Below, in pieces: positions 19,271-34,583 of a stretch of DNA of 64,000 bases (position 1 is its first letter; every line of letters starts with the position of its first letter). The DNA lies in the NCBI RefSeq assembly GCF_014195485.1, contig NZ_JACIBU010000001.1:3472001-3536000 (forward strand). The letters run 5' to 3'. The notes below the pieces were generated by a model. The model made no database searches and was not told the origin of the DNA. It worked only from the letters and a program-made list of their open reading frames with translations. This DNA comes from Modestobacter versicolor (GTDB lineage Bacteria; Actinomycetota; Actinomycetes; Mycobacteriales; Geodermatophilaceae). The translations under genes were made by a program, and so were the position numbers.

Positions 19271-19363
19271 CCGGTGTCGCGTCGGTCACGTAGGGGTGCG
19301 ACCGGGCCCTCGTCACCGGAGAGTAGGTCCGAGTCCGGACCGCCGACCCAGGAGGCACCGACG

Positions 19364-20617
19364 ATGACGTCGACCGCCAGCCGCTCCGCCGGGACCACCG
19401 ACCCCTGGCTCCCGCAGCCACCCGCGCTGCTCCCGCCGTGGCACACGCCGGCCCGGGCGGAGCTGCAGGAGCAGGCCCGCCGGTTCGCGATGGACGAGGT
19501 GCTGCCGGTCGCCAACGAGCTGGACCCGCAGAAGGGCGAGATCCCGCAGCGGCTCCTGGAGCGGCTCGGCGAGCTCGGGTACTTCGGCATCACCATCGCG
19601 GCCGAGGACGGCGGGTTGGGCCTCGGCGTCTTCGAGTACTGCACGGTCAGCGAGGAGCTGGCCCGGGCCTGGATGAGCGTGGCCAGCATCCTGGCCCGCT
19701 CCCAGGGGATGGGCACGTCGGTCGCCGACCCCGCGCGCCGCGCCGACCTGCTCCGCCGCAGCGCCGCGGGCTCCTGGATCGGCGCGGTCGCGCTGTCCGA
19801 GCCCGAGGCGGGGTCGGACCTGGCCAACGTGCAGACCCGCGCGGTGCGCGACGGCGACGAGTGGGTGGTGACCGGGCGCAAGCGCTGGTGCGGGAACGCC
19901 AAGGCCGCCGACTTCATCCAGGTGCTGGTGCGGGTCGCCGACCCGCAGCCCGGGGAGTCCCGCTCCCGCGGGCTGCGCAACCTGCTGCTGGTCAAGGAGC
20001 GCGGCACGTTCCCGCCGGGGCTCAGCGGCCACCCGATCGACAAGGTCGGGTACCACGGCTTCCTGACCTGGGACCTCACCTTCGACGGCGTCCGGGTCCC
20101 GGCCGAGGACCTCATCGTGGGCCCCGGCGAGGCCGGCGATGACCCGGGCGCCGGTTTCCGCGAGGCCCAGGCCTTCCTCAACACCGCCCGGGTGCACACC
20201 GCTGCCCGCGCGGTGGGCCTGGCCCGCGCGGCGGTCGAGGACTCGGTGCTCTACCTGCAGGAGCGGGAGCAGTTCGGCCACCCGATCGGCGACTTCCAGG
20301 CGCTGCGGTTCGCGCTGGCCGACATGGCCGCGCAGGTCGAGCAGGCCCGGGCGTTCTACCGCCAGGTGGCCCACCTGCTCGACGAGGGCCGGCCCTGCGA
20401 GCGGGAGGCGGCGATGGTGAAGCTGCAGGCCACGGAGATGGCGGTGCGGGTCACCAACCAGGCGATGCAGCTGCACGGCGGAAACGGCTACACCACCGAG
20501 CGCCAGGTCGAGCGGCACTGGCGCGACGCCCGGCTGACCACGATCTTCGAGGGCACCAGCGAGATCCAGAAGCGGATCATCAGCAACACGATGCTGCCCC
20601 GCAGCCCGCTGGGCTGA
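19364..20617 (+). CDS. Acyl-CoA dehydrogenase family flavoprotein
   Basis: 417 residues. ACAD signatures are complete: SEPEAGSDLANVQTRA and TGRKRWCGNAKAADFI for the FAD-binding middle domain, QEREQFGHPIGDFQALRFAL and QLHGGNGYTTERQVERHWRD, and the catalytic glutamate in IFEGTSEIQKRIISN. It should oxidise an acyl-CoA to the enoyl-CoA and pass electrons to ETF. The ATG follows CCAGGAGGCACCGACG. It is 93 bases after the amidase on the same strand, so co-transcription with the acetoacetyl-CoA synthetase/amidase pair is possible but less tight. Chain-length preference cannot be told. Confidence 0.92.
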   Translation: MTSTASRSAGTTDPWLPQPPALLPPWHTPARAELQEQARRFAMDEVLPVANELDPQKGEIPQRLLERLGELGYFGITIAAEDGGLGLGVFEYCTVSEELARAWMSVASILARSQGMGTSVADPARRADLLRRSAAGSWIGAVALSEPEAGSDLANVQTRAVRDGDEWVVTGRKRWCGNAKAADFIQVLVRVADPQPGESRSRGLRNLLLVKERGTFPPGLSGHPIDKVGYHGFLTWDLTFDGVRVPAEDLIVGPGEAGDDPGAGFREAQAFLNTARVHTAARAVGLARAAVEDSVLYLQEREQFGHPIGDFQALRFALADMAAQVEQARAFYRQVAHLLDEGRPCEREAAMVKLQATEMAVRVTNQAMQLHGGNGYTTERQVERHWRDARLTTIFEGTSEIQKRIISNTMLPRSPLG

Positions 20618-20626
20618 GCTGCCCGG

Positions 20627-20647
20627 CCGCTGCGGTCAGCGCAGCGG
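20627..20647. terminator. Short hairpin between convergent genes
   Basis: Inverted repeat CCGCTGCG (20627-20634) and CGCAGCGG (20640-20647) with a 5-base loop, between the convergent acyl-CoA dehydrogenase and IclR genes. It overlaps the IclR stop codon. Probably a bidirectional terminator. Confidence 0.45.
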
Positions 20648-21469
20648 GTGGTCCGACCGGATGCCGGTCAGCGCGAGGTCGCGCTCGAGCTGCTGCACGG
20701 CCCGGGTCAGCGGGTCGAGCGCGAGCGCCTGGAGCTGCTCGGGCGTGTGCCGGTTGGAGTGCGTGCCGACGTTCATCGAGCCGAACACCTCGCCCGAGGG
20801 CCCGTGCACCGGGACGGCGATGGAGGTGACGCCCTCCTCCAGCTCCTGGTCCACCAGGCTCCAGCCGCGCTCGCGGGCCTGGGCGACCCGCTCGCGGAGG
20901 ACGGTCGGGTCGGTGATCGTCCGGGCCGTGCGCGGCACCAGCGCGGCCTGCTCCAGGTAGGCGTCCAGCTCGTCGTCGGTCAGCCCGGCCAGCAGCACCC
21001 GGCCGTGCGAGGAGGCGTAGGCGGGCAGCCGGGTGCCGACGGTGATGCCGGTCGCCATCACCCGGCGACCACCGGACCGGGCGACGTAGACGACGTCCGG
21101 CCCGTCGAGCACGGCCACGCTGGCGGTCTCGTGCAGCTCCTCGGACAGCCCGACCAGGTAGGGCGTGGCCAGCTGGGGGAGGGTGAGCGTCGTCAGGTAG
21201 GTGAAGCCCAGCTCCAGCACCGTCGGGCGGAGCCGGAACCGGCGGTCGCTGACCGCCACGTAGCCGAGGTCGACGAAGGTGAGCAGGAACCGGCGGGCAG
21301 CCGCCCGGGTCATCCCGGTGCGGCGCGCGATCTCGCTGAGGGTCAGCTCCGGCTCGGCGGCGGAGAACGCCTTGATGACGGCGATCCCCCGCTCCAGGGA
21401 CTGCACGAAGTAGTCGCCGCGGGGGGCCGCAGCCCGGCCGTCGGCCGGCTCCTCGGCTCCGTGGTCCAT
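20636..21469 (-). CDS. IclR family transcriptional regulator
   Basis: 277 residues. The N-terminal winged helix is clear: YFVQSLERGIAVIKAFSAAE, LTLSEIARRTGMTRAAARRF, LLTFVDLGYVA. The C-terminal IclR effector domain follows (TASVAVLDGPDVVYVAR, LPAYASSHGRVLLAGLTDDE, EEGVTSIAVPVHGPSGEVFG). Its closest style is the PcaR/PobR branch that governs aromatic and other organic acid catabolism. It is the last gene on the strand of the nine-gene catabolic cluster, 78 bases after the aconitase-X small subunit, and is the natural candidate to control it. No cysteine-based switch is seen; the effector is unknown. Confidence 0.93.
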   Translation of the reverse strand: MDHGAEEPADGRAAAPRGDYFVQSLERGIAVIKAFSAAEPELTLSEIARRTGMTRAAARRFLLTFVDLGYVAVSDRRFRLRPTVLELGFTYLTTLTLPQLATPYLVGLSEELHETASVAVLDGPDVVYVARSGGRRVMATGITVGTRLPAYASSHGRVLLAGLTDDELDAYLEQAALVPRTARTITDPTVLRERVAQARERGWSLVDQELEEGVTSIAVPVHGPSGEVFGSMNVGTHSNRHTPEQLQALALDPLTRAVQQLERDLALTGIRSDHPLR

Positions 21470-21547
21470 CCGTCCCCGATCCTGCTCCGTGGTGCCCGCG
21501 CCGGGCGGCGACGACGGCCGGCGTCCTGCCCGCGTCGTCGGTCGACG

Positions 21548-21967
21548 CTACCCGTCGGCCCTGGTCACGGTGATCTCACCGCGGTCGGCGTCCACCCGCA
21601 CCCAGTCGCCGGTGCGGACGGTGGTGAGCGGGTCGGCGTCCAGGTCGGTGATCGCCGGCACCCGGGTGACCACCACGCCGAGCGCGATCTTGGTGTTCAT
21701 CGTGGTGAAGACCATCGCGGCCGGTGCGGTGCCCATCAGCCGGGACATGTGGAACATGCCCGACCACCCCGACGACCCCTTGGCGCCGGGGAAGACCAGC
21801 ACCTTGCCGGCGAAGGACTGGCCGACCAGCTCGTGCCGCAGTTCGATGACCCGCCCCCGGCGGGGCTCGACGCCGCCCCAGCCGGACAGCGCCTCGCTGG
21901 TGACCAGGGCCTCGCCCTCGGCCACGCCGCCCACCAGGCCACGGCCGTGCAGGGTGAACGCGCTCAT
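21548..21967 (-). CDS. Aconitase X small (swivel) subunit, DUF126
   Basis: 139 residues matching the small subunit of two-chain aconitase X enzymes: GRGLVGGVAEGEALVTSEAL, ELVGQSFAGKVLVFPGAKGS, SGWSGMFHMSRLMGTAPAAM and ITDLDADPLTTVRTGDWVRV. This part is the mobile domain that closes over the substrate, with the catalytic serine in the GSSG segment by family knowledge. The ATG overlaps the stop of the large-subunit gene (ATGA), as expected for a pair made in equal amounts. Characterised AcnX enzymes dehydrate cis-3-hydroxy-L-proline (bacteria) or mevalonate 5-phosphate (archaea); which, if either, applies here is unknown. Confidence 0.9.
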   Translation of the reverse strand: MSAFTLHGRGLVGGVAEGEALVTSEALSGWGGVEPRRGRVIELRHELVGQSFAGKVLVFPGAKGSSGWSGMFHMSRLMGTAPAAMVFTTMNTKIALGVVVTRVPAITDLDADPLTTVRTGDWVRVDADRGEITVTRADG

Positions 21968-23241
21968 CGCAGCGCCCCCTGCCAGGTGCCGGTGACCGCG
22001 GCGTCGACGCAGTCGCGCAGCGTGCCGAACCAGCCCTGCACGTCCATGATCGCCGGCAGGTAGTGCACCTGCTTGGCCGAGTCGGTGGCGATCACCCGGG
22101 TGCCCTCGGGCAGGAACTGGCCGATCGCCGGGCAGGTGTCGCTCATCAGCCGGGCGCCGGCGGCCTCCAGGGCGCGCGCGTAGCCGTTGGCCTCGGCGAC
22201 CTCCCGCAGCGCCCGCGGGGTGAACACCCACAGCTCGCTCTCCGCGTGCACCCGCCGGCCCTCGAGCAGCCGGACGACGTCGCGGATCTGGCCGAGGGTG
22301 GCGTGCGGGCAGCCGATCATCACCAGGTCGACGTGGGTGTCCCGGCCGGTGGAGTTCAGGTGCTCGTAGGTCTGCTGCCGCTCCGCCGGCCCGTAGTGCA
22401 GCCGCTCGGCCGGCCGGGCGCCGTCGAAGGCCTCCTCGACGGTGCGCGCCTCGGCCGTGATCCCCGGGACGTGGTACAGCTCGACCCCTCCCGAGGAGGC
22501 CGCGGCCGCTCCGAAGTGCTTGAGCTTCACCAGGTCCGGGGTGGTGGTGATGCCGTCGAGCACCGGCACGCCCTCGGCCACCTGCTCGCCGATCCAGTAC
22601 CCGAGCAGCCCCCAGTCCAGGGTGTCGGCCACCGGGACGCGGACGTCGACGAGGTGGCTGCCGAACCGGTTCTCCGGCAGGTGGTAGCCCCAGTAGGGGA
22701 TCTTGCCGGTGAGCATCGCGGCGCCGGTGCTCTCCCGGCCCTCCACGTTGGTGCGCGCCCCGAGCACGGAGTTGACGTAGACCACCGCCGAGGACTCCAT
22801 CCAGGCGCAGTGCTCGCCCTTCACCGGCACGTTGCCCACCTGGTACGGCGTGCAGGTGTTCATCAGGTGGATGCCGTGCTCGGCGCTGTACGCCTCGCTG
22901 GCCACCACGGCGTCCCGCTCCTCCGGCGAGACTCCCTGCACCTCCCAGTTCCGGGTGTCCATCGGGCCGATGAGCTGGTAGCTCTGCGCCCGCACCGGCG
23001 GGATGGGCAGCGCCACCGGGGCGTCGAGGCTGTGCTCGGAGAACGCGGCGTCCAGGCCGGGGGAGCCGCAGACCATGGTGTGCCGGGAGCCGAAGAGGTT
23101 GGCGCCGCAGACGTTGTCGGTGTCCACCAGCCGCTCGGCGCCCAGCACCTCGCCGTACCGGACGAGCAGGTCCATCGCGGCCTGCACCGCCTCGCCCTGC
23201 TCGCCGTCGAGCATCGCCTGCTCGTCGGGGGCCAGCCTCAT
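21964..23241 (-). CDS. Aconitase X catalytic (large) subunit, DUF521
   Basis: 425 residues. Family segments include NTCTPYQVGNVPVKGEHCAW, the SSAVVYVNSVLGARTNVEG loop, MIGCPHATLGQIRDV and LMSDTCPAIG. The cysteines in NTCTPY, IGCPHA and SDTCPA are where the family's iron-sulfur ligands fall. It should be an FeS-dependent hydro-lyase removing water from a hydroxy acid, working with the small subunit encoded next. The start overlaps the stop of the FAD oxidoreductase gene (ATGA). An IlvD-type dehydratase is also in the operon, so the pathway appears to use two unrelated FeS dehydratases, which is unusual. Confidence 0.9.
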   Translation of the reverse strand: MRLAPDEQAMLDGEQGEAVQAAMDLLVRYGEVLGAERLVDTDNVCGANLFGSRHTMVCGSPGLDAAFSEHSLDAPVALPIPPVRAQSYQLIGPMDTRNWEVQGVSPEERDAVVASEAYSAEHGIHLMNTCTPYQVGNVPVKGEHCAWMESSAVVYVNSVLGARTNVEGRESTGAAMLTGKIPYWGYHLPENRFGSHLVDVRVPVADTLDWGLLGYWIGEQVAEGVPVLDGITTTPDLVKLKHFGAAAASSGGVELYHVPGITAEARTVEEAFDGARPAERLHYGPAERQQTYEHLNSTGRDTHVDLVMIGCPHATLGQIRDVVRLLEGRRVHAESELWVFTPRALREVAEANGYARALEAAGARLMSDTCPAIGQFLPEGTRVIATDSAKQVHYLPAIMDVQGWFGTLRDCVDAAVTGTWQGALR

Positions 23242-24602
23242 GCGCCGTCCTCCCCGCCCAGCCACGCGCCGTCCTTCTCCAGCCGCCGCTGCAGCTCCGG
23301 CACGTCGATGTCGCCGACGGCGACCCCGGCGGCCAGCGCCAGGTCGGCGGCGGTGCCGGCGGCCTGGCCCATCTCGAAGCACGGCCCGGTCACCCGGGCG
23401 CTGGACTGCCCCTCGTGGGTCATCGAGGCGCACCGACCGGCGACGTAGGTGTTGGTCAGCAGCTGCGGCACGATCATCCGGAACGGCAGCTGGTTGTAGC
23501 CGCGGTTGTCCTCGCCGCGCTGCCAGCGCAGCTCGACGTCACCGGCCACGTGCGCCTCCACCGGCCAGCCGTTGACGCCGATCGAGTCCTCGAAGTCGAC
23601 GCAGTCGAGGATGTCGTCCTCGGTGACCTGGTACGCGCCGACGATGCGGCGGGTCTCCCGGATGCCGATGGACGGCGCGATGTCGACGACGTAGGAGTCG
23701 GCGAAGCCCGGCACCGACTCCTGGAAGAACGGGAAGACGTCGCGGACCTGGCGGCGGCCCTGCAGCTCGCCCCGGCTCAGCTGCCGCACGTCGGTGCCGT
23801 CGATCGCGCTGCCGTCGGGGTTGCTCAGCTGGGTGATGTTGGCCCGCCACTCCAGCGGGTTGCGCTGCGGCCGGACGATCGGCCGCTTGCGCGGGAAGGC
23901 GTAGCGGCCGGACCGCTCGGCCTCCTCCATCAGCTCCGGGATCAGCCGCTGGGCGCCGGCCGCGGCCGCGGCGTCCACGCCGTTCACCCGGAACATCAGC
24001 GAGGGGTAGAGCATCCCGTGCGCCGGGTCGGTCTTCTCGTAGGGCGCCCCGGCCCACGCGGCCAGGTCGCCGTCGCCGGAGCAGTCGATGAACACCTCGC
24101 CGGTGACCGCGCCGCGGCCGGACTTGGACTCGACCAGGAGCGCCCCGACGGTGTGCTCGTCGCGCATCAGCACCCCGACGCCGAGGGCGTGGAAGAGCAC
24201 GTCGACGCCGGACTCCACCAGCATGTCGTCCAGGGCGATCTTGTAGGCGGAGATGTCGTAGGCCTGGGCCATGATCCGGTCGGCGAAGCTCAGGTGCGGC
24301 GGGTTCAGCCCACCCAGCCGGTCCACCCGCTCGAGCACCTCGTCGGCCAGCCCGTGCACGACCTGCTTGTGCTCGCCGTGCACGTTGGCGTGCAGCCCGC
24401 AGAAGGTGCTCAGCCCGCCCGCGCTGCCCGCGCCGCCGCTGTAGCCGTAGCGCTCGACCAGCACCGTGGACCGGCCGGAGCGGGCCGCGGCCACCGCCGC
24501 GGTCACCCCGGCGGGGCCGCCGCCGACGACGACCACCTCGTAGGAGCCGAGGACGGGGGTGCTCCGGGCCGGCTCGTCCAGCGACCTGGGTGTCGGGTTC
24601 AC
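23238..24602 (-). CDS. FAD-dependent oxidoreductase (FAD_oxidored type)
   Basis: 454 residues. The dinucleotide-binding motif VVVVGGGPAGVTAAVAAARS is near residue 25, followed by VLVERYGYSGGAGSAGGLST. The FAD-contacting FIDCSGDGDLAAWAGAPYEK and the C-terminal TNTYVAGRCASMTHEGQSSA, VTGPCFEMGQAAGTAADLAL complete the pattern of the FAD_oxidored family often found in sugar-acid, amide or hydroxy-acid catabolic clusters. It probably oxidises a carbon-oxygen or carbon-nitrogen bond in an operon intermediate; the exact reaction is unknown. The GTG start overlaps the dehydratase stop (GTGA), which fixes it. No membrane segment or signal peptide. Confidence 0.9.
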   Translation of the reverse strand: MNPTPRSLDEPARSTPVLGSYEVVVVGGGPAGVTAAVAAARSGRSTVLVERYGYSGGAGSAGGLSTFCGLHANVHGEHKQVVHGLADEVLERVDRLGGLNPPHLSFADRIMAQAYDISAYKIALDDMLVESGVDVLFHALGVGVLMRDEHTVGALLVESKSGRGAVTGEVFIDCSGDGDLAAWAGAPYEKTDPAHGMLYPSLMFRVNGVDAAAAAGAQRLIPELMEEAERSGRYAFPRKRPIVRPQRNPLEWRANITQLSNPDGSAIDGTDVRQLSRGELQGRRQVRDVFPFFQESVPGFADSYVVDIAPSIGIRETRRIVGAYQVTEDDILDCVDFEDSIGVNGWPVEAHVAGDVELRWQRGEDNRGYNQLPFRMIVPQLLTNTYVAGRCASMTHEGQSSARVTGPCFEMGQAAGTAADLALAAGVAVGDIDVPELQRRLEKDGAWLGGEDGA

Positions 24603-26344
24603 GGGGTGCTCGTCTCCTGGGGGGTCGGGCCGGCGGGGCCGCCGGTCCGGGTGTGCGGGGGAGGGGTCAGCACGGCGCCGGCCGCGACCGGGGAGACCAG
24701 CTGCCGGTAGATCGACAGCCAGCCGGTGTCGGGCTGCACCTGGGTGCGCTGCGCCCAGGCCGCCGCCCGGCGCTCCAGCTCGTCGGCGGGCACCTCGAGG
24801 TCGACCCGGCGCCGGACCAGGTCGATCACGATCGGGTCGCCGTCCTCGACCAGGCCCAGCGGGCCGCCGACGGCCGCCTCCGGGTTGACCTCGCCGACGA
24901 CGGTGCCGGTGTTGACCAGGCCGGACATCTGCCCGTCGGTGACCAGCGCGACGGTGTCGCCGAGCCCGGCGCCGTCCAGGGCGAAGACCAGGGCCGAGCC
25001 CAGCGCCATCCCCGGGCCGCCGACCGGGCCGAGACCGCCGAGCACGACCACGTGCCCGGGCCGGATCTCCCCGGCCGACAGCCCGGCCAGCGCCTCGTCG
25101 CGGGTGCCGTAGCAGATCGCGGTGCCGCGGAAGACCTGCGCGCCGGTGTCGTGCACCGGCCGCTTCACCACGGCGCCACCGGGGGCGAGCGAGCCGTGCA
25201 CCATGACGATGCTCGGTCGTTCCCCGAACGGCCGGCTGACCGGCCGGACCACCTCGGGGTCGGCCACGGTGACCCCGGCCAGCACGTCGCCCAGCGTGCC
25301 GCCGGCCACCGTGCGGGCCGACAGGTCGAGCAGGTCGGCGAGCTGGCTCATCACCGCGAGGGTCCCGCCGGCGGCCTCCAGGTCCTCGATCGAGTCCGGG
25401 CCGTTGGGGCGCACCGAGCAGAGCAGCGGCACCCGGTCGGCGAGCTCGGCGAAGAGCCCCGGGACGTCGACGTCGCAGCCGGCCTCGTGCGCGATGGCCT
25501 GCAGGTGCTTGATGCTGTTCACCGAGGCGCTGGTGGCGAGCATGACGGTCACCGCGTTGGCGAAGGCCGCCGGGGTGAGCACCTCCCGGGGCCGCACCCC
25601 CTCGGTGACCAGCTCGACGATCCGGGCACCGGCCCGCCGCACGCCGTCCCACATGGCCGGGCTGTTGGCCAGCACCGGGGTGGTGCCCGGCAGCGCGATG
25701 CCCAGCGCCTCGCAGGCCATGTGCATCGAGTTCGCGGTGCCCATGCCCGCGCAGACCCCCGGCCCGCGGATCGCGTTGTCGCTCATGCCGGTGAGGTGCT
25801 CCAGCGTCATCCGGCCGGCGGCCACGTGCCCGGCGGCCAGGAACACCTCCTCGATGTCGACGTGCTCGCCCTCGTACCGGCCGCTGGGCTGGTAGCCGCA
25901 GCCGACGATGATCGTCGGGATGTCCAGCCGGGCGGCGGCCATCACCTGCCCGGGGGCGGTCTTGTCGCAGGAGGCGAGGCAGACCATCCCGTCGAGCTGG
26001 GCGCCCTCGACGGCCACCTCGATGTCGTTCACGATCAGGTCGCGGCTGGGCAGGATGTAGCGCCCGTCGCGGCCGGCGCTGGTGATGAAGTCGCTCGGCG
26101 CCGCGGTGCGCACCTCGAACGGCAGCCCGCCGGCCGCCCGGATCGCCTCCTCCATCGGGCCGACGACGTCGTCCAGGTGGCTGAAGCAGATGGCCAGCTT
26201 CGACGAGGAGTTGACGATGGCGATCTTCGGCTTCGTCATGTCCTCCTCGGCGATGCCGAGCGCCCGCCACTGGGCCCGGCGGACCGCCCACCGCGAGCTG
26301 CCGACCGCCAGGTTGCTCCGCAGCACGACCGGCTCCGGCGTCAC
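24599..26344 (-). CDS. IlvD/Edd family dehydratase
   Basis: 581 residues, normal length. Iron-sulfur ligand motifs are present in LASCDKTAPGQVMAAARLDI and GPGVCAGMGTANSMHMACEA, with VTDGQMSGLVNTGTVVGEVN near the C-terminus holding the catalytic serine loop. SVNSIKHLQAIAHEAG matches the family's substrate lid. IlvD acts in branched-chain amino acid synthesis and Edd or sugar-acid dehydratases in catabolism. Here the lack of other ilv genes and the transporter and ThDP neighbours point to catabolism of a sugar acid or other polyhydroxy acid (inference). Both ends overlap neighbouring genes. Confidence 0.92.
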   Translation of the reverse strand: MTPEPVVLRSNLAVGSSRWAVRRAQWRALGIAEEDMTKPKIAIVNSSSKLAICFSHLDDVVGPMEEAIRAAGGLPFEVRTAAPSDFITSAGRDGRYILPSRDLIVNDIEVAVEGAQLDGMVCLASCDKTAPGQVMAAARLDIPTIIVGCGYQPSGRYEGEHVDIEEVFLAAGHVAAGRMTLEHLTGMSDNAIRGPGVCAGMGTANSMHMACEALGIALPGTTPVLANSPAMWDGVRRAGARIVELVTEGVRPREVLTPAAFANAVTVMLATSASVNSIKHLQAIAHEAGCDVDVPGLFAELADRVPLLCSVRPNGPDSIEDLEAAGGTLAVMSQLADLLDLSARTVAGGTLGDVLAGVTVADPEVVRPVSRPFGERPSIVMVHGSLAPGGAVVKRPVHDTGAQVFRGTAICYGTRDEALAGLSAGEIRPGHVVVLGGLGPVGGPGMALGSALVFALDGAGLGDTVALVTDGQMSGLVNTGTVVGEVNPEAAVGGPLGLVEDGDPIVIDLVRRRVDLEVPADELERRAAAWAQRTQVQPDTGWLSIYRQLVSPVAAGAVLTPPPHTRTGGPAGPTPQETSTP

Positions 26345-27213
26345 TGCTGTCCTGCGACGGAGTCGTGCCAGGGGATGACCAGGCGTTTGGTGGTGGTGAC
26401 GGCGAGATACAGCAGGGAGCCCATCAGGGCGAGCAGGATGATCACGGCGAACAGCTGGGGTGCATCGAGTGCGTTGAGGCTGGAGACGACGAGGTGGCCG
26501 AGGCCTTCGCTGCCACCGAGGTACTCCCCGACGATGGCGCCGATGACGGCGAAGACGATGGCGACCTCGGCGCCGGCGAACACGTAGGGCAGCGTGGAGG
26601 GCAGTTCCAGGTTGCGGAAGGTGGCCCAGCGGGTCGCACCCAGCCCGCGCATGACGTCGCGGTGACCGCGGTCGACCGACCGGACCCCGAGCATCACGTT
26701 GAGCATGATCGGGAAGAACGCCAGGATCGCCGCCATGATGATCTTGGAGGTGGTGCCGAAGCCGAACCAGATCACGAAGATCGGGATGAACGCGACCTTG
26801 GGCACGACCTGGAAGGCGACCATCGCCGGCTGCACGGCGCGCTCGAGCCAGACGACCCGGCCCAGCACCGCGCCGATCGCGACCCCGGCGATGAGTGCCA
26901 CGGCGAAGCCGATGAGGACCTCGGTGAGGGTGATCCAGATGTCGTGGTAGACCGCCGACCCGGACAGCAGGGTGACCAGGGAGTCCCAGACGGCAGAGGG
27001 GGCGGGGAGGATGAACTCCGAGACCCCGACCACCGAGACGGCGAACTGCCAGCTGCCCAGCAGTAGGAGCAGCAGGATGGGGCTGGAGATCCAGGGCAGC
27101 ACCTTCATCAGCCGTTCCCGGTCCCCGAACAACCCCGACCTGCGCGCGCCACCATCGGTGGCGCTGGCGGGGGTGGCGTCTTCGCTGATCGGGTGGTTGC
27201 TGGTGGTGGTCAT
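26341..27213 (-). CDS. ABC transporter permease, NitT/TauT (SsuC) type
   Basis: 290 residues with about six membrane segments. A polar N-terminal tail of about 35 residues comes first, then VLPWISSPILLLLLLGSWQF. The cytoplasmic EAA-type coupling loop VMRGLGATRWATFRNLELPS and the VPKVAFIPIFVIWFGFG segment are typical of permeases for taurine, sulfonates, nitrate and aromatic or pyrimidine precursors. It forms the import channel with the ATPase and binding protein encoded just upstream. The ATG shares one base with the ATPase stop (TGATG). Confidence 0.93.
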   Translation of the reverse strand: MTTTSNHPISEDATPASATDGGARRSGLFGDRERLMKVLPWISSPILLLLLLGSWQFAVSVVGVSEFILPAPSAVWDSLVTLLSGSAVYHDIWITLTEVLIGFAVALIAGVAIGAVLGRVVWLERAVQPAMVAFQVVPKVAFIPIFVIWFGFGTTSKIIMAAILAFFPIMLNVMLGVRSVDRGHRDVMRGLGATRWATFRNLELPSTLPYVFAGAEVAIVFAVIGAIVGEYLGGSEGLGHLVVSSLNALDAPQLFAVIILLALMGSLLYLAVTTTKRLVIPWHDSVAGQQ

Positions 27214-28160
27214 CAGTCCTCCTCGTCCAGCTCGCTGCGCAGCACCCGGACGACGTCTTGGAACTCCTGGCTGGTCTCGGTGACCAGCGAGCGGGGGCGG
27301 GCCAGCGAGACGGGGGTGACCGACCGGATCCGCCCGGGTCGGGGGGTGAGCAGCACCACCCGGTCGGCCAGGAACACCGCCTCGGGGATGGAGTGGGTCA
27401 CGAACACCACGGTGGCCCCGGCCTGGGCGTGGATGTTCTGCAGCTCCAGGTTCATCTTGTCCCGGGTGAGGGCGTCCAGGGCGCCGAAGGGCTCGTCCAT
27501 CAGCAGGATGGTCGGGTCGTAGGACAGCGCGCGGGCGATCGCCGCCCGCTGCCGCATCCCACCCGACAGTTCCCGGGGGTAGGCGTTCTCGAAGCCGGGC
27601 AGCCCGACCAGCTCGCACAGCTCCCCCGCCCGGGCCAGGCGGGCCTTCTTGCCCATCCCGCGCAGCTTCAGCGGCAGCGACACGTTCTCCGCCACGGTGT
27701 ACCAGGGGAACAGGTTGGCGTCCTGGAACACCAACCCGAACTGCTTGAACGCCTCGTCGTTGCGTTTGCCGTTGCGCCAGATGCTCTCCCCGTCGGCCTC
27801 CACCACCCCCGAGGTGGGGGGCAGCAGCCCGGCCAGGATCCGCAGCAACGTCGTCTTCCCGCAGCCTGAGCGGCCGACCAGGGAGATGAACTCCCCCCGC
27901 CCGATGGTCAGGTTCACGTCGCTGAGGGCGTGCACCTCACCCCGGCGGGCCTGGTAGGTCTTGTTCACCCCGCTCACCTGGAGCTGGGCCGGGAGGTCAC
28001 CGGCCGGGCCGACAGCGGTGGCGCCGGGCCGTGCGGCGGGCTCCTCGCCCGCGCGCACGGCCGGTGCCGGGTCGACCCGGTCGGCGTCCGTCGCGCCGTG
28101 GTGGGTCAGCGCGGTGTGCGTCCCCGTCCCGGGGGCCGGGGTGGTCCCGGGCAGCCGCAT
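27213..28160 (-). CDS. ABC transporter ATP-binding protein, NitT/TauT (SsuB) type
   Basis: 315 residues. Walker A SLVGRSGCGKTTLLRILAG, Q-loop GLVFQDANLFPW, signature ELSGGMRQRAAIARAL, Walker B ILLMDEPFGALDALTR and the switch histidine in VFVTHSIPEAVFLAD are all intact. Residues 1 to about 58 are an Ala/Pro/Gly-rich extension not seen in typical SsuB/TauB proteins. The TGATG overlap with the binding-protein gene supports the long start, but an internal start cannot be ruled out. It powers the importer encoded by its neighbours. Confidence 0.93.
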   Translation of the reverse strand: MRLPGTTPAPGTGTHTALTHHGATDADRVDPAPAVRAGEEPAARPGATAVGPAGDLPAQLQVSGVNKTYQARRGEVHALSDVNLTIGRGEFISLVGRSGCGKTTLLRILAGLLPPTSGVVEADGESIWRNGKRNDEAFKQFGLVFQDANLFPWYTVAENVSLPLKLRGMGKKARLARAGELCELVGLPGFENAYPRELSGGMRQRAAIARALSYDPTILLMDEPFGALDALTRDKMNLELQNIHAQAGATVVFVTHSIPEAVFLADRVVLLTPRPGRIRSVTPVSLARPRSLVTETSQEFQDVVRVLRSELDEED

Positions 28161-29269
28161 CAGTTGCTCCCGGGCTGGAAGTCGTTGGAGTACCACTCGG
28201 ACGGGTCGAGGCCGTCCTCGATGAAGCCGGAGTCCACCATCTCCTGGTAGACGGCCTCCCACTGGTCGGGAACCATCGTGCCGATCTCCTCCTCGCCGGC
28301 CGCGGTCCACGACTCGACGTAGGTCGACAGGCTCTCCTTGGCGATCTCGGGCGTCGCCAGCGCCGGGATCTCGACGGAGGAGAGGCACTCGAGCGTCTCG
28401 GCGAAGCCGTTCGCCTCGTCGGCGATGATGAACTTCAGCGTCTCGTCGATCGCCGCGAGGTACTTGCGCAGCTGCTCCTGCTTCTCCGGGTCCTCGGTCT
28501 GCTCCTGCGAGGTGACGTAGACCTGGCCGCCGCTGGAGATGGCGTCGTTCGGGGCGTAGACGACCGCGTCGGGCTGCTGCTGCTCCAGCGCGACCGCGGT
28601 GTCCAGCGAGACGATGTACCCGCCGATCCGGCCGGAGGAGACCAGGTCGAACACGCCCGGGGCCAGGCCGACCACCTGGGTCTGCACCTCGTCGGGCTCG
28701 ATCCCGGCCGAGGCCGCGACGAGCTTGAGCAGGATCTCGCTGGTGCCGCCCTCCGACGGGGTGCCCATCAGCCGCCCCTCGAGGTCCTCGGCGCTCTCCA
28801 GCGGGTCGTTCTCGCCGGAGATGAAGCGGATGGTGCCCTGCTTGGTGGGCTGGCCGACCGCGACCAGCGGGGCGTTGCGCTCGGCCACGGCCAGCTGGGT
28901 CTCCAGGTCGCCGACCCGGGTGATGAGCGCGGAGCCGGCGAGCACGGTCTGGATCGCCTGCGCCGAGCCCTGGGTGGTCTCGAAGCTGACGTCCAGCCCC
29001 TGGTCCTCGAAGTAGCCGCAGTTGTCCGCGACCAGCTCCGGGGCGAAGGAGAGGCTCTCCAGCGGGAGGATGTTCAGGAAGGTGACCTCCTGGACGGCGT
29101 CGCTCCCGCCGCCTCCCTCGGTGCTGCCGGAGCCGGCGGACCCCTCGTCGTCCGAGCCGCCGCAGGCGGCCAGCAGGACTGCGGCGAAGCAGAGCGAGAG
29201 CGGGGCGCGGACCGCGCGGAGCGGGGACCGGCGCGCTGCCGGGCGGCTGCTTCGGGTGCCTGCGTTCAT
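28160..29269 (-). CDS. ABC transporter substrate-binding lipoprotein, NMT1/SsuA-like
   Basis: 369 residues. The signal LSLCFAAVLLAACGGSDD has a clear lipobox with Cys36, followed by a Gly/Ser/Asp linker that keeps the domain off the membrane. The mature part follows the NMT1/THI5-like and SsuA pattern: FAPELVADNCGYFEDQGLDV, QTVLAGSALITRVGDLETQL, GTPSEGGTSEILLKLVAASA. This family binds sulfonates, thiamine precursors, nitrate, aromatic acids and other small anions, so the ligand is open. The ATG overlaps the stop of the ThDP enzyme gene (ATGA). Confidence 0.92.
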   Translation of the reverse strand: MNAGTRSSRPAARRSPLRAVRAPLSLCFAAVLLAACGGSDDEGSAGSGSTEGGGGSDAVQEVTFLNILPLESLSFAPELVADNCGYFEDQGLDVSFETTQGSAQAIQTVLAGSALITRVGDLETQLAVAERNAPLVAVGQPTKQGTIRFISGENDPLESAEDLEGRLMGTPSEGGTSEILLKLVAASAGIEPDEVQTQVVGLAPGVFDLVSSGRIGGYIVSLDTAVALEQQQPDAVVYAPNDAISSGGQVYVTSQEQTEDPEKQEQLRKYLAAIDETLKFIIADEANGFAETLECLSSVEIPALATPEIAKESLSTYVESWTAAGEEEIGTMVPDQWEAVYQEMVDSGFIEDGLDPSEWYSNDFQPGSN

Positions 29270-31068
29270 GGACGATCTCCTCGGGGTCGAGCGGATGGGT
29301 GGGCAGGAGCAGGGGCGGCCGGGGTGGCCCGGTCGATCCAGGGCGAGTCGACGTGCGCGACGACGACGGCGCAGCGGCCCTCGGCCACGGCGGCCAGGCC
29401 GCGGCGCAGGGCGGGCACCAGGTCCGCGGGGGCGGTGACGTCCTCGCCGAAGGCACCGCAGGAGCCGGCCAGCAGGGCGGCGTCGGGCGGCTCGGGGAAC
29501 AGCGTCCCGACCACCTCGCCGCTGCGGGCGGACGCGCCGTCGGGGAAGAGGTCGAAGACCGGGCGGCGGCTGGCCGCGTAGCCGCCGTTGGCCAGCACCA
29601 CGATCAGGAACGGGGTGCCGGCGTCCCGGGCGGTGAGCAGCGTCGCGGTCGGGCCGGAGAACAGGAACGTCCCGTCACCGACCACCGCGACGACCCGCCG
29701 GTCGGGCGCGGCGAGCTTCGCCCCGATCGCCCCCGGCACCGCCCAGCCGAGGCCGGAGCCGCCGCACTGGAAGGCCGTGCCGGGCAGGGTGCGGGCCAGC
29801 CCGGTGCGGACGGTCTCGATGTTGGTGACCGACTCGTCGAGCAGCAGGTCCTCGGGCGCGAGCAGCGAGTCGAGGGCGGCGACCACGGCGGCGGTGCTCA
29901 GCGACCCGGCCGCCGGCGGGCCCGGCGGCGGGACGGCGGCCGGCAGCGCGCGGGCGGCGAGCGCGCCGGTGTCCACCAGCCGCTCGAGCTCGTCGGCGAG
30001 CGCGCGCAGCCCGAGCCGGGGGTCGGCCTGCAGGCACAGGTCGACCGGGAAGTCCCACCCGGGCATGGACAGCTTGAGCGGGTCGGCGTCCAGCTGGACG
30101 ACGGTCGCCGAGGCCGGCGGTGCGGCGACCGAGGGCACCCACGGGACGTCGCAGTCGACGACCAGGACGGCGTCGGCGGCCCGCAGCAGCTCCGCCGTCC
30201 GGCGGGTGTCGGGCACGGAGCAGGGGTGGCCGGAGGGCAGGTTGACCCGTTCCCGGCGCTCGAGCACCGGGGCGCCGAGCAGCTCGGCCACCCGGGCCAG
30301 CTCGGGGACCGCTGCCTGGTCGCGGCCCAGCCGGCTGGTGACCACGACCGGGCGCTCGCCGCGGGCCAGCGCCGCGGCCGCCTCGGTCACCGCGGCCGGG
30401 TCGGGTGCGGTCCGGGCGGGGACGGCGCGGCGCGGCGCGGGGGCGGGAGGTGCCGGCACCGGCTCCATGAGCACCTCGCGGGCCACCGTGACGTACACCG
30501 GGCCGGGCGGTGTGGCGCTCGCGGCCTGGAACGCGCGGGCCAGCTGCTCGTCGGCGGTGGCGGCGCCGTGCAGGTCCGCGGACCACTTCACGTACCCGCG
30601 GACGATGCCGGCCTGGTCGGGGACGTCCTGCATCCAGTGCACCAGCGTGTCGCGCCCGCCCGGCACCTGCCCGCTGCTGGTGCGCGGGGTCAGCCCGGCG
30701 ATGACGACCACCCCGGCCTCCGCGCGGGCCGCGTTGTGCAGCATGGCGCCGAGGTTCTGGGTGCCGACGTCGACGTGCACCATCACCACCTGGGGGCGGC
30801 CGCTCACGGCGAAGTGCGCGTGCGCGGCGGCCAGCGCGACCGCCTCGTGCCGGCAGAGCACCACCCGCGGGGTGGGCCGGCCGGCCTCCCGCAGCGCGAC
30901 GACCGCCTCCTGCACCGGGGCGGTGTCGGTGCCCGGGTTCAGGAAGACGACGTCCACCTGGTGCCGGACCAGCGCGGAGACCAGCAGCTCGGCGACGTTC
31001 CCGGCCAGTCGGTCGGCCGCGACCTCGTCCGGACCGTCGTCGAGGGACACGTGCGGCGGTGCGGTCAC
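29266..31068 (-). CDS. Thiamine diphosphate-dependent enzyme (acetolactate synthase/decarboxylase-like)
   Basis: 600 residues. The cofactor-activating glutamate is Glu75 in LCRHEAVALAAAHAH, and the ThDP/Mg motif runs from VVGDGTFLF (about residue 463) to VLANGGYAA. The three-domain layout (PYR, central, PP) is normal for acetolactate synthase, glyoxylate carboligase or benzoylformate-decarboxylase-like enzymes. The motif FLNPGTDTAPVQEAV is that of a poorly characterised subgroup often annotated only as ThDP-requiring protein. It could decarboxylate or ligate a 2-keto acid made by the dehydratases. GTG follows CCGGGAGACACC. It is the first gene of the operon, 226 bases downstream of the kinase gene. 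Confidence 0.9.
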   Translation of the reverse strand: MTAPPHVSLDDGPDEVAADRLAGNVAELLVSALVRHQVDVVFLNPGTDTAPVQEAVVALREAGRPTPRVVLCRHEAVALAAAHAHFAVSGRPQVVMVHVDVGTQNLGAMLHNAARAEAGVVVIAGLTPRTSSGQVPGGRDTLVHWMQDVPDQAGIVRGYVKWSADLHGAATADEQLARAFQAASATPPGPVYVTVAREVLMEPVPAPPAPAPRRAVPARTAPDPAAVTEAAAALARGERPVVVTSRLGRDQAAVPELARVAELLGAPVLERRERVNLPSGHPCSVPDTRRTAELLRAADAVLVVDCDVPWVPSVAAPPASATVVQLDADPLKLSMPGWDFPVDLCLQADPRLGLRALADELERLVDTGALAARALPAAVPPPGPPAAGSLSTAAVVAALDSLLAPEDLLLDESVTNIETVRTGLARTLPGTAFQCGGSGLGWAVPGAIGAKLAAPDRRVVAVVGDGTFLFSGPTATLLTARDAGTPFLIVVLANGGYAASRRPVFDLFPDGASARSGEVVGTLFPEPPDAALLAGSCGAFGEDVTAPADLVPALRRGLAAVAEGRCAVVVAHVDSPWIDRATPAAPAPAHPSARPRGDRP

Positions 31069-31129
31069 GGTGTCTCCCGGTGGTTGGACGGCGGTGTCCG
31101 ACGGTGGAGCGAGGCACCGTGTGCGCTAT

Positions 31130-31185
31130 CCGTACACGTGTGCTTCTTCCGTACATGTGTAGGGGGTCACAGTGCCGCCTGTCAA
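31130..31185 (-). promoter_or_regulatory. Promoter with repeated operator-like sites for the catabolic operon
   Basis: On the minus strand a perfect -35 TTGACA (31185-31180) is followed after 18 bases by TACACA (31161-31156). A 13-base site, CCGTACATGTGTA on the + strand (31149-31161), covers the -10. A near copy, CCGTACACGTGTG (31130-31142), lies 19 bases downstream. Each contains the inverted repeat TACA-NN-TGTA (one mismatch in the second). The spacing of about two helical turns and the position over the start site suggest a repressor site, perhaps for the IclR protein at the end of the operon. The element is AT-rich for this genome. Confidence 0.6.
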
Positions 31186-31294: not shown

Positions 31295-33988
<2,694 letters not shown>

Positions 33989-34205
33989 GCACACCTCCAG
34001 CCGGTCCGTCCGCACGAGCGTGGTCCGTGCCGCGGCGGTCCGGACCGTGGCCGGTCCGCCGGACCGCCCGACGGTGCAACCTACCCGGGCCGGGTGTGCG
34101 GTGTGCGGTCGAGTCGTGGGCGGCGGTCGGGTCGGCCGCCGTCCCGGTGTTGGATGGGGCGCAGCCCCGCCGGGAGAGCCCCGGCGGCGAACCGAGGAGA
34201 GTCCC

Positions 34206-34583
34206 GTGGCAGAGCTGACCCGCCCCGACGTCGAGCCGCCCACCGGCCCCGCACCCGACGACCTGGTGATCGAGGAGCTGGTGGTCGGCGACGGCCCCGA
34301 GGCCACCGCCGGCAGCCTGGTGAGCGCCCACTACGTCGGCGTCACGCACGACGGCGGCGAGCAGTTCGACGCCTCCTGGGACCGCGGTGACCCGCTGGAG
34401 TTCCGGCTCGGCGTGGGCATGGTCATCCAGGGCTGGGACGAGGGCATCGCCGGCATGAAGGTCGGCGGCCGCCGCCGGCTGACCATCCCGGCGCACAAGG
34501 CCTACGGCGACCGCGGCGCGGGCGGCGTCATCAAGCCCGGCGCGACGCTGGTCTTCGTCGTCGACCTGGTCGGCGTCCGCTAG
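34206..34583 (+). CDS. FKBP-type peptidyl-prolyl cis-trans isomerase
   Basis: 125 residues, one FKBP domain. AHYVGVTHDGGEQFDASWDR, EFRLGVGMVIQGWDEGIAGM, KVGGRRRLTIPAHKAYGDRG and IKPGATLVFVVDLVGV are the complete fold, with the active-site Tyr, Phe, Asp and Trp positions kept. No signal peptide, so a cytosolic folding helper. GTG follows ACCGAGGAGAGTCCC. The stop is followed by a strong hairpin. Confidence 0.93.
   Translation: MAELTRPDVEPPTGPAPDDLVIEELVVGDGPEATAGSLVSAHYVGVTHDGGEQFDASWDRGDPLEFRLGVGMVIQGWDEGIAGMKVGGRRRLTIPAHKAYGDRGAGGVIKPGATLVFVVDLVGVR

Follow-up and report, generated by a model that had tools for sequence, protein, structure and literature searches.

A 64,000-nucleotide stretch of the Modestobacter versicolor genome (contig 1, 3.472-3.536 Mb of a 4.59-Mb genome, referred to as G000; the whole stretch is hereafter called the window) carries nine minus-strand genes that probably form a regulated operon through which a hydroxylated carboxylic acid is taken up and broken down, judging from the families they encode and from their neighborhoods in other genomes. 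The part of this operon that is conserved is narrower than nine genes, i.e., a flavin adenine dinucleotide (FAD) oxidoreductase, a heterodimeric AcnX, and, in most loci, an IlvD-type dehydratase. This catabolic core is real, widespread, and, as far as the literature was searched, undescribed.

From position 31068 to position 20636, the genes encode a thiamine diphosphate (ThDP)-dependent enzyme, a substrate-binding lipoprotein (SBP), an ATPase, a permease, an IlvD/Edd dehydratase, a PF12831 FAD oxidoreductase, the large and small AcnX subunits, and an IclR regulator. A sequence-only reading of this DNA had named these nine families, all of which were recovered on the minus strand by Pfam or NCBIfam matches (Table 1), and had described seven successive overlaps of 1 or 4 bases, which our measurements bear out: ThDP/SBP overlap by 4 bp, SBP/ATPase and ATPase/permease by 1 bp each, and permease/IlvD, IlvD/FAD, FAD/AcnX-large, and AcnX-large/AcnX-small by 4 bp each. 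Its term "fully overlapping" fits eight of the nine genes but not the IclR gene, which is set off from the AcnX small-subunit gene by a gap of 78 bp. None of the nine open reading frames (ORFs) contains an internal stop, and their third-position guanine-plus-cytosine (GC) content is 93-99%, the GC content of the stretch being 75%.

Table 1. Features of the operon in window coordinates, in order of transcription; G017 is a genome of the same genus and L006 its corresponding locus
Feature	Position	Strand	Evidence
Leader, possible promoter region	31069..31185	-	blastn vs G017 locus L006: 70% over 161 columns, window 31030-31185; promoter role is a candidate
ThDP-dependent enzyme, 600 aa, GTG start, first operon gene	29266..31068	-	PF02776, PF00205, PF02775
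NitT/TauT-type substrate-binding lipoprotein, 369 aa	28160..29269	-	PF09084 85 bits; lipobox LAAC with Cys36 (by sequence)
ATP-binding cassette (ABC) transporter ATPase, ATG start 1 bp inside SBP stop	27213..28160	-	PF00005
ABC transporter permease	26341..27213	-	PF00528
IlvD/Edd-family dehydratase, 581 aa	24599..26344	-	PF00920 326 bits, PF24877 173 bits
FAD oxidoreductase PF12831, 454 aa	23238..24602	-	PF12831 373 bits (cut-off 27)
AcnX large subunit, 425 aa	21964..23241	-	PF04412 386 bits (cut-off 31.5)
AcnX small (swivel) subunit, 139 aa, stop TAG	21548..21967	-	PF01989 90 bits (cut-off 27)
IclR-type regulator, PcaR/PcaU/PobR group, 277 aa	20636..21469	-	NCBIfam TIGR02431 302.4 bits (cut-off 284.75)

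To survey AcnX neighborhoods, we used three aligned AcnX large subunits to scan a collection of 84,980 species genomes, which yielded 355 AcnX-encoding stretches. Locus counts given hereafter refer to the best 80 of these 355 stretches (5.0-21.3 kb each), a sample that leans toward near relatives, and a match is counted when it covers at least half of a window protein (blastp). Automatic gene calling in the related loci produced antisense ORFs and merged ones, and the core genes were therefore counted by BLAST with the window proteins. Relatives of the AcnX small subunit were present in 79 loci, of the FAD protein in 74, of IlvD in 46, of the ATPase in 25, of the IclR regulator in 21, of the permease in 16, of the SBP in 6, and of the ThDP enzyme in none. 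All 46 IlvD relatives share at least 50% identity with the window protein (tblastn gave a count of 47 of 80), and of the 59 loci in which both flanks are 6 kb or longer, 57 contain FAD and 35 contain IlvD. FAD and AcnX share a strand in 72 of 74 cases, and in 49 the FAD alignment ends no more than 200 bases from AcnX. Given that PF12831 matches at E 1e-20 and IlvD_N genes each number three in the M. versicolor genome, the probability of a chance neighborhood within 10 kb is near 1% per gene.

Gene order is likewise preserved. The arrangement SBP-ATPase-permease-IlvD-FAD-AcnXL-AcnXS-IclR (L and S, large and small subunits) occurs on one strand in all four fetched Blastococcus and Geodermatophilus loci (L009, L010, L011, and L021), and the SBP-to-IclR order is repeated on one strand in G017; scattering of the genes in close relatives, which the sequence-only reading had named as evidence to the contrary, is therefore not what this genome presents, its genes still being together. 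A Paroceanicella profunda plasmid (L094) carries the reduced set LysR-IlvD-FAD-AcnXL-AcnXS, with TRAP genes ~0.9 kb beyond on the opposite strand. Among 59 genomes (M. versicolor and its relatives up to the order; up to 28 first-look candidates scored per genome), the FAD protein was found at E 1e-90 in three, namely, G000, G016, and G017, and these are exactly the three that hold the window AcnX clade. In the fourth AcnX carrier among the 59, G052, the AcnX belongs to a separate clade (36% identity), and the FAD protein finds no match at E 1e-90. Within the genus, the window AcnX clade occurs in 3 of 23 members, M. versicolor included, some of these genomes being incomplete. The AcnX operon is an accessory trait, the genes of which are gained and lost together. 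Control AcnX genes of other clades, i.e., those of a Sinorhizobium hydroxyproline cluster (L096), Pseudomonas MPC6 (L099), and G052 (L008), had no nearby relative of the window FAD or IlvD proteins at BLAST E 1e-6; the S. meliloti locus L096 carries FAD-dependent oxidoreductase genes of other kinds. Intermediate cases are Sporomusa (L097), with a distant FAD gene (32%) and a gene (27%) resembling the F25 family described below, and Cupriavidus (L095), with a FAD gene of 56% located 16 kb off. Burkholderia L098, which lies inside the clade, has IlvD at 60% and FAD at 30%.

Several observations weigh against the proposed catabolic operon. IlvD is missing from 34 of the 80 loci and from 24 of the 59 well-flanked ones, and it may not be obligatory or may be encoded elsewhere. 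The FAD gene is missing from two well-flanked loci (L078 and L086; n = 59), and on a 7.2-kb Frankia contig (L014), transporter genes adjoin AcnX directly, without IlvD or FAD. The FAD proteins of the loci form two groups, those of 19 loci being 60-82% identical to the one in the window and the others near 30%; one member of the second group was tested (L082) and is also PF12831, but the groups are only 24-31% alike and their reactions may differ. SBP relatives are confined to the six loci mentioned above, and transporter types vary (TctC-type in 14 of 80, MFS in 10, TRAP in 8, and others; like the SDR counts below, these come from automatic families and are rough lower bounds), so the compound may differ between lineages, although the varied kinds are all compatible with an organic acid. 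Moreover, the 80 loci are the closest of the 355, a sample tilted toward near relatives.

The ThDP enzyme is best read, from these comparisons, as a lineage-specific addition and a recent recruit. Its gene stands first in the operon and overlaps the SBP gene by 4 bp, as would suit the sequence-only reading's view that the nine genes constitute one obligate pathway including a ThDP step. We regard that view as improbable, since the gene is missing from the corresponding place in G017, from all four other Geodermatophilaceae loci in which the remaining genes keep their order, and from all 80 loci overall. More specifically, G017 is collinear with the window from the leader to the IclR gene, except for ~1.7 kb extra in the window between the leader and the SBP gene, which is the ThDP gene. 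At E 1e-60, no relative was found in 57 of 58 other genomes (up to 22 candidates scored per genome); at E 1e-100, relatives occur in 3 of 296 class members, M. versicolor included (four candidates scored per genome), and neither of the two outside copies has an AcnX within the 18 kb read around it. The protein scores 549 bits against NCBIfam PRK08327 (cut-off 456), and its best-scoring solved relatives are benzoylformate decarboxylases. The canonical activating Glu is missing, however, the motif being NPGTDTAP (Thr) versus NPGTNELP of benzoylformate decarboxylase, and the two outside relatives (L113 and L114) read NPGTDSAP, with Ser at the Glu position. Glyoxylate carboligase likewise lacks the usual ThDP-activating Glu, and this rare PRK08327-like family with NPGTD(T/S)AP is reminiscent of that enzyme.

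To place the AcnX enzyme, both domains of which score above the Pfam cut-offs, we aligned 46 large subunits (the window and 45 of the 80 loci) and 80 small subunits (the window and 79 loci), taking landmark residues from Watanabe et al. 2021 (PMC8184944). Cys130, Cys311, Cys370, Glu149, Ser150, Lys390, and Tyr394 of the large subunit are kept in 46 of 46 rows, as are Ser65 (general base), Ser66, and Gly67 of the small subunit in 80 of 80. Position 68 of the small subunit is aromatic in a clade-specific manner (Trp in 74 and Tyr in 6 of 80), yielding the signature GSSG[W/Y], and Trp30 is kept in 79 of 80. The three cysteines are the equivalents of Tk Cys110, Cys283, and Cys342 of the archaeal enzyme at the type II cluster site in all 46 rows and are predicted to carry a [4Fe-4S] cluster, whereas the type I [2Fe-2S] ligand Cys510 is not kept (Ala in 44 and Ser in 2 of 46). 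Arg53-His54 was considered as a conserved AcnX anion site and rejected (Arg in 11 and His in 10 of 46).

These residues bear directly on catabolism of cis-3-hydroxyproline (or another hydroxyproline). The NCBIfam cis-3-hydroxyproline dehydratase model is the best match of the large subunit and the second match of the small one, after a DUF126 model, but the scores are 243 and 76 against a cut-off of 700 that was set for the fused protein. The amine contact Thr72 is replaced by Gly67 in 80 of 80 rows, the Asp203 position is never Asp (Cys 26, Ala 15, Ser 3, Gly 1, and Val 1; n = 46, with the alignment gapped there), and the cluster cysteines are of the other type. The operon also lacks proline racemase, pyrroline reductase, and trans-3-hydroxyproline dehydratase genes, whereas S. 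meliloti L096 encodes both an epimerase and a trans-3-hydroxyproline dehydratase. Hydroxyproline catabolism is accordingly very unlikely, and the assignment was rejected on residues and gene context. The mevalonate-phosphate assignment was rejected on the same two grounds: the contact Asn79(L) is Leu in 44, Phe in 1, and Thr in 1 of 46 rows, the preceding column holds Gln, His, or Lys (the alignment being gapped nearby), and the pair Thr63-Val64(S) is Ser-Gly in 80 of 80. In a tree of 54 rows, 48, including the window, stand apart from AtAcnX and the S. meliloti enzyme (support 97/94 for the 48 and 99/97 for the split, with a long-branch warning). The sequence-only reading's hint of a cis-3-hydroxyproline or mevalonate-phosphate substrate is thus not sustained, the landmark residues being replaced and the hydroxyproline-type AcnX lying outside the clade.

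Replacement of both landmark sets places this AcnX among the types without known function. Its predicted activity is neither that of a cis-3-hydroxyproline dehydratase nor that of a mevalonate-5-phosphate dehydratase, its clade should belong to types IIc-IIf, and a third specificity beside the hydroxyproline and mevalonate-phosphate types is predicted. According to two papers, the bacterial AcnX types IIc-IIf lack both landmark residue sets and await characterization (PMC8184944), and their function is unknown and the cluster type of other AcnX subfamilies unclear (PMC10040528). The AcnX small-subunit gene ends in TAG (21548-21550) in a genome that probably reads some UAG codons as selenocysteine (Sec); we took this TAG as a plain stop, because the match to solved homologs reaches about the same end.

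The IlvD/Edd protein shows both Pfam domains of its family, and Cys53, Cys126, Cys198, and Ser474 are present in 46 of 46 aligned rows. It falls below the cut-offs of the biosynthetic dihydroxy-acid dehydratase model TIGR00110 (472 bits versus 618) and of a second such NCBIfam model (505 versus 644), and a stronger IlvD_N match (458 bits) lies on contig 2 of the same genome. The FAD oxidoreductase was modeled with a predicted local distance difference test (pLDDT) score of 90 and has a Rossmann-type flavoprotein fold.

As for the substrate class, we weighed sugar acids against aromatic-derived acids and lean slightly toward the former. Outside valine synthesis, most members of the IlvD/Edd family dehydrate sugar acids. 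A sugar-acid pathway, in which AcnX and IlvD would each dehydrate one 2,3-diol of an aldonic or aldaric substrate, the FAD enzyme would oxidize a secondary alcohol, and the ThDP enzyme would decarboxylate the resulting diketo acid, is possible though doubtful in this specific form. Models for L-arabinonate and related dehydratases do match the window IlvD, below cut-off, and SDR genes occur in 20 and TRAP permeases in 8 of 80 loci (automatic families; Pfam of representatives). However, the dihydroxy-acid dehydratase score of 505 bits exceeds the 339 bits of the L-arabinonate dehydratase model, both being below cut-off, and no sugar kinase or aldolase was found among the annotated neighbor-family representatives, which are a part of all neighbors. 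The retained Trp30 (79 of 80) and the aromatic residue gained at position 68 (80 of 80) of the AcnX small subunit also speak against a sugar acid and favor an aromatic-derived or alicyclic one, such as an arylglycerate or a 3-hydroxy-3-arylpropionate, from which AcnX and IlvD would yield cinnamate- or arylpyruvate-type products and the ThDP enzyme would decarboxylate the arylpyruvate. This proposal, which we consider unlikely, draws further on the IclR regulator, which scores above the PcaR/PcaU/PobR subgroup cut-off (TIGR02431), on the benzoylformate decarboxylases as best-scoring solved ThDP relatives, and on neighbors in single lineages, i.e., aromatic-acid-type MFS and phenylacetaldehyde-dehydrogenase-like genes (both below cut-off) and catechol-dioxygenase-type and Rieske-type genes. 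Such aromatic-type neighbors are not widely shared, though; TRAP and TctC-type transporters suggest small polar acids, and the ThDP enzyme is absent from all 80 loci.

A paralogous operon elsewhere in the M. versicolor genome (L107:6397-14039; G000:C1 ~794.4-802.0 kb) provides a further comparison. Its ATPase and permease genes are 98.8% identical in DNA to those of the window over 1,669 bases, and the transporter proteins are 100% identical (ATPase over 257 aa and permease over 290 aa). The transporter genes are followed by F25 (368 aa, a "W[ST]DGLPV" protein with no Pfam match), a 93-aa ORF, FAD' (66%), IlvD' (65%), a UGSC-family gene, and IclR' (54-56%), such that F25 and UGSC stand in the place of AcnX. 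No relative of the window SBP was found in the 19-kb stretch that holds this operon, and the ORF upstream of its ATPase is NmrA-like; a fold search with F25 returned nothing significant. In G017, the strand opposite the AcnX operon carries FAD', IlvD', F25, and UGSC behind that operon. The four Blastococcus/Geodermatophilus loci contain two F25 genes: one, next to relatives of FAD' and IlvD', lies upstream on the opposite strand, and the other accompanies UGSC downstream. Overall, F25 or UGSC was found in 9 of the 80 loci, including distant or fused forms in two betaproteobacterial and one acidobacterial metagenome-assembled genomes. Three further UGSC-F25 pairs in the M. versicolor genome (L108 and L109; G000:C1 394-410 kb and 84-98 kb) have SDR and IclR genes or an NMT1-type binding protein as neighbors, with no FAD or IlvD relative among the genes listed; they point to a wider role, perhaps as a general catabolic pair.

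The sister UGSC-family gene has TAG at its selenocysteine position. More specifically, TAG occupies the Sec position of [stop]GSCSAAS in G000 (L107:12571-13104), G017 (L006:18100-18818), and Geodermatophilus (L010:15300-15970), and TGA occupies the UGSC Sec position in Plantactinospora (L012:11776-12540). The M. versicolor genome encodes a transfer RNA (tRNA) with anticodon CTA that matches the tRNA-Sec family at 64 bits and is labeled pyrrolysine (Pyl) by ARAGORN; that family search is unspecific, since a tRNA-Ser gene (48 bits) and 5 of 14 control genomes also gave scores over the cut-off. The original description of Sec-UAG and UGSC selenoproteins from Geodermatophilaceae is reportedly that of Mukai et al. 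in 2016. Reading of UAG as Sec in the sister UGSC gene is consistent with the CTA-anticodon tRNA and with the report of both features in this family (PMC5330540).

A transporter that is almost the same and an exchanged enzyme pair suggest that, within a single pathway, AcnX and F25/UGSC take corresponding positions, perhaps each for another isomer. Two parallel dehydrating branches fed by one importer are a tentative extension of this idea: one would rely on Fe-S chemistry (AcnX, IlvD, and FAD) and the other on selenium (UGSC and F25, with their own IlvD and FAD paralogs), and the AcnX slot would be filled by a new selenium-dependent lyase made up of the selenoprotein pair, perhaps for the other stereoisomer. 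If true, the UGSC selenoproteins would gain a catabolic role.

Returning to the catabolic operon for an imported hydroxylated acid, we propose the following scheme. The lipoprotein and the ABC transporter would import the acid, as their families imply. By analogy with solved AcnX enzymes, AcnX would dehydrate a beta-hydroxy acid: Ser65 of the small subunit would take the C2 proton, Lys390, Tyr394, and Ser150 would hold the carboxylate, and the predicted [4Fe-4S] cluster on Cys130/311/370 would take the C3 hydroxyl. IlvD would convert a 2,3-dihydroxy acid to a 2-oxo acid through its three-Cys cluster and Ser474, and the FAD enzyme may perform a single redox step on the carbon skeleton at some point in the series. 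The order put forward in the sequence-only reading (uptake, oxidation, two dehydrations, then carbon-carbon cleavage) is tentative. The AcnX step would set the specificity for substrate or stereoisomer, because the sister operon keeps the transporter, FAD, and IlvD but swaps in the selenoprotein pair. The ThDP enzyme, added in the M. versicolor lineage, may act on the resulting 2-oxo acid, and the IclR regulator (PcaR/PcaU/PobR group) may sense the acid or an intermediate.

Some neighboring genes were also noted. By eye, an acyl-CoA-dehydrogenase-like gene at window positions 19274-20617 is convergent with the IclR gene, 18 bases apart, and its counterpart in G017 lies behind a 6.9-kb block missing from the window; a large sensor-kinase-like ORF (31295-34306) lies on the same strand upstream of the operon. 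In related loci (L082:12718-15152, L055:13490-15792, and L025:7127-8604), Amidohydrolase_2 genes (the L082 member tested, others assigned by clustering) and, in Paenibacillus L025, a Rieske-domain protein stand beside FAD and AcnX; a feeder step is possible for such neighbors. A Pseudomonas plasmid that was typed as conjugative carries an AcnX of a different clade (L099:8312-11697), with class II aldolase and SDR genes next to it.

Searches of the open-licence PMC literature aimed at AcnX or its partners listed no paper with a title or abstract opening that describes AcnX with IlvD and a PF12831 enzyme, and a description elsewhere is possible. Within the scope of these searches, the sequence-only reading's suggestion of an undescribed system stands: the genes make up a coherent operon that is linked to import, is apparently catabolic, and combines a flavin enzyme with two Fe-S hydro-lyases unrelated to each other. 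With the window and its relatives, the question of AcnX IIc-IIf function becomes testable, the handles being the fixed partners (FAD, often IlvD), the GSSG[W/Y] signature with Trp30, the [4Fe-4S] site predicted at three Cys, a binding protein that can be screened for ligands, and the large number of carriers (the 355 stretches). Likewise, the sister operon ties UGSC selenoproteins, described as functionally uncharacterized in PMC13188914, to the same kind of operon.

Compared with known systems, the window AcnX shares with the cis-3-hydroxyproline dehydratase (PDB 7cnp/7cnq/7d2r) the fold family, the catalytic Ser, and the equivalents of Glu292, Ser293, Lys530, Tyr534, and Trp35, but it differs in Thr72 (Gly), Asp203 (Cys/Ala/Ser/Gly/Val), Ser449 (Cys), and Cys510 (Ala/Ser), as well as in its separate subunits and gene context. 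With type IIb mevalonate 5-phosphate dehydratase (PDB 7cnr/7cns) it has in common the two subunits, the Ser, Lys, and Tyr set, and the three Cys that carry a [3Fe-4S]/[4Fe-4S] cluster there, whereas Leu replaces Asn79(L) in 44 of 46, Trp replaces Leu27(S) in 79 of 80, and Ser-Gly replaces Thr63-Val64; moreover, the window AcnX is bacterial and belongs to an apparently catabolic operon. It resembles types IIc-IIf, as outlined in PMC8184944 and PMC10040528, in being heterodimeric, bacterial, and without either landmark set. The window IlvD shares both Pfam domains, the three Cys of the cluster, and the presumed catalytic Ser with IlvD dihydroxy-acid dehydratase (e.g., PDB 6nte and 6ovt) but scores below the IlvD NCBIfam cut-offs. 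Similarly, the transporter matches NitT/TauT-type ABC importers (SsuA/TauA/Thi5-like) in its PF09084 SBP, ATPase, and single permease, although the SBP and permease reach no NCBIfam cut-off. Finally, UGSC-family selenoproteins are found here in a sister operon outside the window, where they are tied to FAD, IlvD, and transporter genes.

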